Assembly: GCA_010093515.1 (NCBI GenBank)
Contig: MU001672.1
Coordinates: forward strand, 830,496-894,495
DNA from: Lineolata rhizophorae
Lineage: Eukaryota > Ascomycota > Dothideomycetes > Lineolatales > Lineolataceae
Direction: 5' to 3'
Length of the DNA: 64,000 nt
Positions 8,058 to 9,663 of this stretch are shown here, piece after piece. A model generated the notes under the pieces. The model was not told the DNA's origin. It saw nothing but the letters and a program-made list of their open reading frames with translations, and did not search any database. How positions within the stretch are numbered: the first letter of the stretch is position 1; every line of letters starts with the position of its first letter. A program made the position numbers and the translations under genes.

Positions 8058-8064
8058 TGACTCA
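8058..8064 (+). promoter_or_regulatory. TGACTCA element near the cpc1-type leader (possible autoregulatory site)
   Basis: ATGACTCAC with core TGACTCA, the exact binding sequence of Gcn4/Cpc1 proteins, lies about 420 bp upstream of the coding start and about 100 bp before the pyrimidine-rich leader. Autoregulation through such sites is known for this family in fungi. Here it is inferred from position and sequence only. Confidence 0.5.
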
Positions 8065-8238
8065 CTCGCGCGCCCAGATAAGCCCTGCTCAGCTGGCTTG
8101 GCCCCGCCCGTGGCTCCTCCTCGAGCCTAGTTAAGGCCTGCGTCTCCCTCGCTGCCTGGCGCTGGTTTTTTTTTTTCCTGCTCCCTCTTCACCCACACTG
8201 CCCAAAATCGACACCACCACCCCGAGACAACCACAGGC

Positions 8239-8253
8239 ATGGCTGTCTTCTAG
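8239..8253 (+). promoter_or_regulatory. Four-codon upstream ORF in the cpc1-type leader
   Basis: ATG GCT GTC TTC TAG encodes M-A-V-F and stops. It is the only ATG in the roughly 320-nt C/T-rich leader before the ATG at 8481, and it lies 228 nt upstream of that ATG. GCN4, cpcA and cpc-1 messages are translationally controlled by short uORFs during amino-acid starvation. The position and length fit a reinitiation-permissive first uORF. The transcript start itself is not visible. Confidence 0.6.
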
Positions 8254-8480
8254 CTCCCTTCCCGCTCTTCTCTTCTTCTATCTGTCAAGATAGATCCCCA
8301 CGCCCCCCAGCGCACCACCCACTCCTCTCAACATCCACTTCACCGCCCCTCAGAGCCTCCGCTCGCCGGACCTCTGAATCGCACCAGCAGCCCTCGCGCT
8401 CCAGCGACTCGAGCTTTCCAACCAGCAACCATTTCGCCGCTCGACTTCACGTCGTTCACCACGGCTCCTCAACAGTCACC

Positions 8481-9663
8481 ATGGCGTCCCTTACCAGCGT
8501 TCCCGACCTCAAGGCAACCCCAGCCCCATCCACCGCATCAGGACCTCCCCCGGCAGAGCGACTTCGTGCTCTTCGACCATCCACCGCCAGCCCCGCAGCC
8601 TGCTGCTCGGCACGGGACCCCTTCACAGAGCCCTTCATTTAACGCCAACCCGGGCTTCTATCGCAACTCCGCCCCTTCGTCTTCTGCCGCAGTCAACCGT
8701 ACCCAGTCGCGTCCACCGGTCCCCCTGTTCAGTCAGAGCACTGGCAACGTCCGTTCTTCCCACCACCAGAGTAACAACGCCGCATCCTTGCACGTGAACA
8801 CCATGGCTCCTGAAGCAGGTACTCCTACCCCTGACACCGGCTTCTCGCCTGCCGCCAGGCCGCTCACACAAGCAGGCTTTCTAAACATCGATGACGATCT
8901 GGGCGCCGGTGCCGGCGCTGCCGCCGCCTTCGGCGCCCAGGATCTCACCTTCGACGATGCGACCCTGTTCAGCTCGGCCGCATCGTTCAACCCGATCAAT
9001 AGCTCGTCCGTGCCGTCGTCTACTCAGACGGTCTCGCCGAAGGATATTTTTAACGAGGGCTTTGGGTCGGCGCCGCCATCGACGGCGTTCACCCATCTCA
9101 CCTCCCCTTCGATCGACGACTCCCCGTTCGGTGGAGACAGCTATGACTGTTCGCCTGCCTTCCAAACCGATGGCGTGCCAGATGCAACAAACACCACGAG
9201 CTGGTACTCGCTCTTCCCCGATGCTGGTAATGACAACTCCGATGCTGCCGCCGTCGATCTCGAGCGGTCTGCGTCCGGCTTTTCCCTCGGGCAGGCTAGC
9301 TCCTCGGGCCAAGAGGGCTCGCCCCTTGTTACGGACAACTCTCACCGAAGGACGTCATCTCTTGCCAACGCATCGCCGATCACGGACGGCCGGCCCCACT
9401 CTGCTTCCAATGGCGTCAAGGCCAACCGGCGGCGCAAGGGCGCGGGCGAGCTCCCGCCCATCCAGTACGACAAGCACGACAAGGTTGCCGCCAAGCGGGC
9501 CCGCAACACCCTGGCCGCGCGCGAGTCGCGTAAGCGCAAGCTCGAGCACCTCACGGAGCTCCAGGAGCGCATCAGCCAGCTCGAGAGCGAGAACGCTCAG
9601 TTGAGGGATTCTGCGGGCCGCTGGAAGGCTCTCGCTACCAGCCACGGCTTGTCTCTGCCGTAG
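8481..9663 (+). CDS. cpc1: Cpc1/CpcA/Gcn4-type bZIP transcription activator, with a frame change near the N-terminus
   Basis: Master activator of amino-acid biosynthesis genes (general/cross-pathway control), nuclear. The long frame to 9663 holds the family's N-terminal QSDFVLF motif, an SAPSSSAAVNRTQSRPPVPL segment, acidic/Ser-rich activation regions (SPKDIFNEGFGSAPPSTAF), then a C-terminal basic region (KRARNTLAARESRKRKLE) and short leucine zipper ending at GLSLP. The natural start is the ATG at 8481 in good context (TCACCATGG), whose product MASLTSVPDLKATPAPSTAS resembles the N-terminus of this family. That frame, however, runs to a stop at 8642, and the QSDFVLF frame is one base ahead of it. 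The switch falls at or near the C-run 8547-8551; dropping one C would join the two into about 393 residues. No good splice donor lies between. Either a sequence error, a real indel, a +1 frameshift, or an overlapping uORF explains this. An uORF and a TGACTCA box lie upstream. Confidence 0.85.

Follow-up and report, generated by a model that had tools for sequence, protein, structure and literature searches.

The subject of this text is the 5' leader of a gene in a 64,000-nucleotide stretch of Lineolata rhizophorae DNA (the window, part of a 31-Mb, 48-contig genome). The gene codes for a CPC1 protein with a basic leucine zipper (bZIP), related to GCN4. Judged by its sequence, the leader is very probably the arrangement known from cpc-1 of Pezizomycotina, in which two upstream open reading frames (uORFs) precede the main AUG. 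An earlier note on this DNA had described a frame discontinuity at the N-terminus of the gene. That was a misreading: the ATGs at 8239 and 8481 open short open reading frames (ORFs) of their own, and the main frame itself is continuous. The peptide encoded from 8481, MASLTSVPDLKATP, which the same note regarded as the N-terminus of the protein, is best read as the product of uORF2, and the motif QSDFVLF as part of an extension of CPC1 whose translation would begin at a non-AUG codon. On this interpretation, uORF2 overlaps a stop-free, putatively non-AUG-initiated extension of the CPC1 frame of the kind described across Pezizomycotina (PMC5487733).

Anatomy of the leader and the published pattern

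The features on which the argument depends are as follows, with near-cognate codons (NCCs) numbered as in PMC5487733.

8239..8253, + strand: uORF1, five codons (MAVF and a stop), with G at both context positions, -3 and +4
8254..8802, + strand: extension that continues the CPC1 frame upstream through 183 codons without a stop and without an AUG
8374..8376, + strand: in-frame CUG, candidate NCC6, with C at -3 and A at +4; codon and order as in PMC5487733
8431..8433, + strand: in-frame AUU, candidate NCC7, with A at -3 and U at +4
8461..8463, + strand: in-frame ACG, candidate NCC8, lying 20 nt 5' of the AUG of uORF2; context A (-3) and G (+4)
8481..8642, + strand: uORF2, 54 codons with its stop, in frame -1 with respect to the main ORF; context of its AUG A (-3) and G (+4)
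8554..8574, + strand: QSDFVLF in the CPC1 frame (frame 1), within the part that overlaps uORF2; called conserved by the earlier note
8803..9663, + strand: main AUG-initiated CPC1 ORF, 286 aa, with a C-terminal bZIP, related to GCN4

Only two ATGs occur between 8130 and 8802, those at 8239 and 8481, and each begins its own short ORF. The first, uORF1, starts at -564 relative to the main AUG and encodes four residues. The second, uORF2, starts at -322 and encodes 53 aa in the 159 bases ahead of its stop, a TAA at 8640-8642; it lies in frame 0 (8481 mod 3 = 0), with (8803-8481) mod 3 = 1, and the main AUG at 8803 follows 160 nt downstream of its end. The uORF2 peptide matched no Pfam family at E <= 1. 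As far as coordinates are concerned the earlier note was accurate: the frame of the ATG at 8481-8483 does end at 8642, QSDFVLF does lie one base ahead of that frame, and the run of five C's is present at 8547-8551. The main frame (frame 1) runs uninterrupted from 8254 to its stop at 9661-9663, and the earliest ATG in that stretch is the one at 8803. Its closest stop 5' of the uORF2 AUG is the TAG at 8251, which is the stop of uORF1 (8251-8253), 227 nt away. Since the main frame holds no ATG from 8254 to 8803, the 183 upstream codons can be reached only by initiation at a codon other than AUG, by a frame shift or by splicing.

The description with which this leader can be compared comes from Ivanov et al. 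2017 (PMC5487733), who analysed 100 Pezizomycotina cpc-1 sequences and whose results are cited here from the part of the article available. In all of the cpc-1 analysed, uORF1 has 3-6 codons and uORF2 has 35-70 codons, and every uORF2 is in the -1 frame. The published minimum is 101 nt for the distance from the uORF2 AUG to the closest in-frame stop on its 5' side, and 160 codons for the length of the extension; an extension started by an AUG is reported as not observed. NCC8, an ACG, is kept in 98 of the 100 species, its -3 and +4 bases being A and G wherever it is present, while NCC7 (AUU/AUC/AUA) is kept in 74 and NCC6 (CUG/UUG) in 77. Purifying selection was found on the main-frame extension, five codons being especially conserved where uORF2 overlaps it; QSDFVLF is probably this highly conserved patch.

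All seven of the published leader features that were tested are found in the window sequence: a uORF1 of 5 codons; a uORF2 of 54 codons; its -1 frame; no main-frame stop between the uORF2 AUG and the main AUG; a 5' stop 227 nt away; no AUG that opens the extension; and, ahead of uORF2, the ACG at 8461, whose -3 base is A and whose +4 base is G. The GCN4-type bZIP expected of a gene with the Pezizomycotina cpc-1 leader is likewise encoded by the main ORF. Further in-frame near-cognate codons 5' of 8481 are AUA 8290, CUG 8374, AUU 8431 and ACG 8449, the AAG at 8287 having been excluded from the list as a poor initiator. CUG 8374, AUU 8431 and ACG 8461 stand in the published order, and the first two are candidates for NCC6 and NCC7 by codon type and order.

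How often such features would arise by chance was estimated from 2000 dinucleotide shuffles, either of 8254-8802 (for openness) or of 8254-8480 (for near-cognate codons), with the order and context rules of the ACG test taken from PMC5487733. An in-frame ACG of good context anywhere in 8254-8480 appeared in 1.45% of shuffles. For the final 30 nt the figure was 0.2%, the 30-nt limit having been set after the site was seen. The full series of CUG/UUG, then AUU/AUC/AUA, then a good-context ACG was found in 0.2% of the shuffles of 8254-8480.

Contrary evidence and rival explanations

Several observations weigh against reading the region as a uORF2 laid over a non-AUG-initiated extension, or lend that reading little help. 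The openness of the main frame is, taken alone, weak evidence: 8254-8802 was stop-free in 15.8% of shuffles and also ATG-free in 10.0%, and 8482-8802 was stop-free in 24.4%. Near-cognate codons are not unusually many, with 5 observed and an average of 3.5 in the shuffles. The NCC assignments are candidates by codon type and order, and selection on the extension would be an extrapolation from the published species. In N. crassa in vivo, near-cognate codons gave <1% of the reporter output of the main AUG (PMC5487733). Over 8481-8550, moreover, codon usage places the uORF2 frame ahead of the main frame by 3.8 nats, and codon usage alone would fit a joined frame no less than a translated uORF2 over a coding extension.

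The codon model behind this last comparison was built on 11,484 nt in 9 further ORFs of the window, chosen by eye from 25 of at least 300 aa, with cpc1 excluded, one of the nine shortened, and no protein-family check. With this model the main frame was best in 22 of 24 sliding segments of 30 codons, many of the upstream margins being small; among the segments wholly 5' of 8803 it was best in 9 of 11, the exceptions being 8434-8523 and 8479-8568. In true coding controls (overlapping segments), a lead of 3.8 nats was reached by the frame one base before in 1 of 516 cases, and in 10 of the 516 when any other frame is counted. Beyond the C-run, frame 0 was still ahead over 8553-8639 with the stop excluded, by 1.9 nats, and frame 1 was ahead in 8524-8613 and, once the stop is included, over 8551-8642. 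Because the result around uORF2 is mixed, the codon test was not taken to prove the extension. Within uORF2, the 5' half (8481-8550) is possibly constrained as a peptide.

Three other explanations would connect the ATG at 8481 with the QSDFVLF frame, and the sequence as it stands needs neither a frame join nor an assembly error nor a +1 shift, since it already fits the published architecture. Homopolymer runs are generally error-prone, and if the C-run at 8547-8551 had the wrong length, 8481 could be the true protein start. The codon score, which prefers frame 0 ahead of the run and, in some cuts, frame 1 after it, would agree with such an error. The run is merely five bases long, however, and the preference for frame 0 persists beyond it over 8553-8639. 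The existing sequence also has the seven published features, the -1 frame of uORF2 among them, and joining the frames would create the AUG-started extension that was not observed in the group (PMC5487733). We therefore consider an assembly or sequencing error to be very improbable. A short intron linking an exon from 8481 to the QSDFVLF frame has in its favour the GT at position 8499 and a CAG whose last base is 8556. The earlier note had seen no acceptable splice donor here, and this holds: none of the 8 GTs between 8160 and 8560 scores above 4 of 6 to GTRNGT, that at 8499 scoring 3, and 8200-8600 contains no CTRAY branch site. Leptosphaeria maculans cpcA, as reported in the part of PMC3199737 available, was intronless by polymerase chain reaction on genomic DNA and cDNA, and of the three explanations splicing is the one to which we give the least credence.

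A programmed +1 shift, by which some of the ribosomes that started at AUG 8481 would change frame within uORF2 and make an AUG-started, extended CPC1, has a slim chance of being correct, though a slightly better one than an assembly error. The -1 frame of uORF2 in all Pezizomycotina analysed would suit it, and shifting by +1 (or -2) within uORF2 is named as compatible with the group-wide data (PMC5487733). In N. crassa extracts, larger products were lower yet present after near-cognate codons 5-8 had been removed jointly, so other sources of them exist; removing codon 5, 6, 7 or 8 singly, on the other hand, abolished specific products, by which non-AUG starts are already demonstrated in that species (PMC5487733). 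At the C-run itself there is no stop codon in frame 0, which stays open from the run to 8639. Not all known +1 sites have a stop codon. The C-run is not known to resemble any such site. Folding of the region did not exceed chance: among nested structures, the only kind covered, 8552-8651 had z -0.37 (67 of 200 shuffles as good) and 8481-8600 had z +1.02 (170 of 200 as good). If a +1 shift did occur, uORF2 would be partly a coding segment as well as a barrier, and its strict -1 frame across Pezizomycotina would be explained.

Identity of CPC1 and related systems

The C-terminus of the 286-aa ORF matches Pfam bZIP_1 with E 5.9e-10, and the best solved relative of the ORF is GCN4 (2dgc_A, E 1.7e-07). 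A search of the 469-aa frame against its own genome at E <= 0.001 returned the self-match and one bZIP stretch of 32% identity. This sole other reported match lies on contig C4 at 125917-126207, minus strand, and corresponds to query residues 366-461. A protein scan of viral contigs gave 20 pattern matches, 0 of which were confirmed as relatives. A 5.8S search bearing on membership in Pezizomycotina returned no match and is regarded as uninformative, its control having responded in 9 of 14 bacterial and archaeal genomes. One further feature lies upstream of the leader.

8058..8064, + strand: TGACTCA, a general-control response element, 181 nt 5' of uORF1

Elements of the TGACTCA type occur in cpc-1 promoters, according to the available parts of PMC5487733 and PMC3199737, and the copy at 8058-8064 is consistent with a candidate site of cpc-1 autoregulation. 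As the 64-kb window contains 8 matches to TGA[CG]TCA, a single TGACTCA at 8058 is only mildly informative.

The leader resembles those of Neurospora crassa and the 100 Pezizomycotina homologues in its short uORF1, its longer -1-frame uORF2 and its downstream main AUG, as well as in the AUG-less main frame that is open past uORF2 and in the CUG, AUU and ACG 5' of uORF2. It differs from that of N. crassa in that uORF1 is here in frame with the main CPC1 ORF. Whereas the N. crassa main frame is described as reaching the mapped 5' end of the mRNA, the stop of uORF1 here sets the 5' limit, so no extension can start 5' of uORF1 and its length is limited to 183 codons. This is a small variation, and 183 codons still exceed the published minimum.

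A close parallel is L. maculans cpcA, for which the available text of PMC3199737 gives a uORF1 of 12 bp and four residues at -541 and a uORF2 of 159 bp at -344. Both leaders have a four-residue uORF1 (MAAI there, MAVF here), a TGACTCA upstream and similar distances to the main AUG, and 159 recurs as the length of uORF2, given in bp there and counted ahead of the stop here. The main ORF differs, with 246 aa there against 286 aa here. The L. maculans uORF2 peptide was reported to resemble its counterparts in two species of Aspergillus (PMC3199737), and such similarity between species may explain why the peptide from 8481 had looked family-like to the earlier reader.

Saccharomyces cerevisiae GCN4 is a homologous bZIP gene, and the roles of its positive uORF1 and inhibitory uORF4 match those of cpc-1 uORF1 and uORF2; unlike cpc-1, it has four uORFs and is described in the available text as having no N-terminal extension (PMC5487733). 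Mammalian ATF4 has a 3-codon uORF1 followed by a longer uORF2 and is under control of eIF2-alpha (PMC5972666, available in part). The earlier note had offered an ATF4-like arrangement, with a short uORF followed by a long one overlapping the main frame, as one possibility. Its two uORFs are indeed there, at 8239-8253 and 8481-8642, but in its defining respect the leader is not ATF4-like, since 160 nt separate the end of uORF2 from the main AUG. An ATF4-type overlap of uORF2 with the start of the main ORF is not supported by these positions, 8642 and 8803. uORF control of cpc-1 and cpcA is restated in work on microbial uORFs, the available part of which does not mention the extension (PMC11550727). 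A literature search with four peptide strings found no mention of them.

Proposed translation and its meaning

The steps of translation proposed here are all drawn from experiments in N. crassa and would apply to the anatomy laid out above. In extracts of that fungus near-cognate codons 5-8 initiate translation, and ribosome profiling found footprints in the main frame along the stretch that separates uORF2 from the main AUG (PMC5487733). In L. rhizophorae, the four-residue uORF1 would be translated and scanning would then resume. When amino acids are plentiful, reinitiation at the strong AUG at 8481 would commit ribosomes to the out-of-frame uORF2 and thus keep them off the main AUG at 8803. 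Under starvation, phosphorylated eIF2-alpha would let more ribosomes bypass 8481 and initiate at 8803. Alongside this, some ribosomes would start at in-frame near-cognate codons, most likely at ACG 8461 but also at AUU 8431 and CUG 8374; these would read the main frame through the uORF2 region, escape uORF2 and make a CPC1 with an N-terminal extension that includes QSDFVLF.

To a reader or an automatic annotator, a regulatory leader that is conserved can resemble a broken gene. Placing the protein start at 8481 would misannotate uORF2 (MASLTSVPDLKATP) as the N-terminus, and placing it at 8803 would hide the extension. The arrangement is ordinary and has already been described in Neurospora and its relatives, and the biological yield of the analysis is one further example of it.
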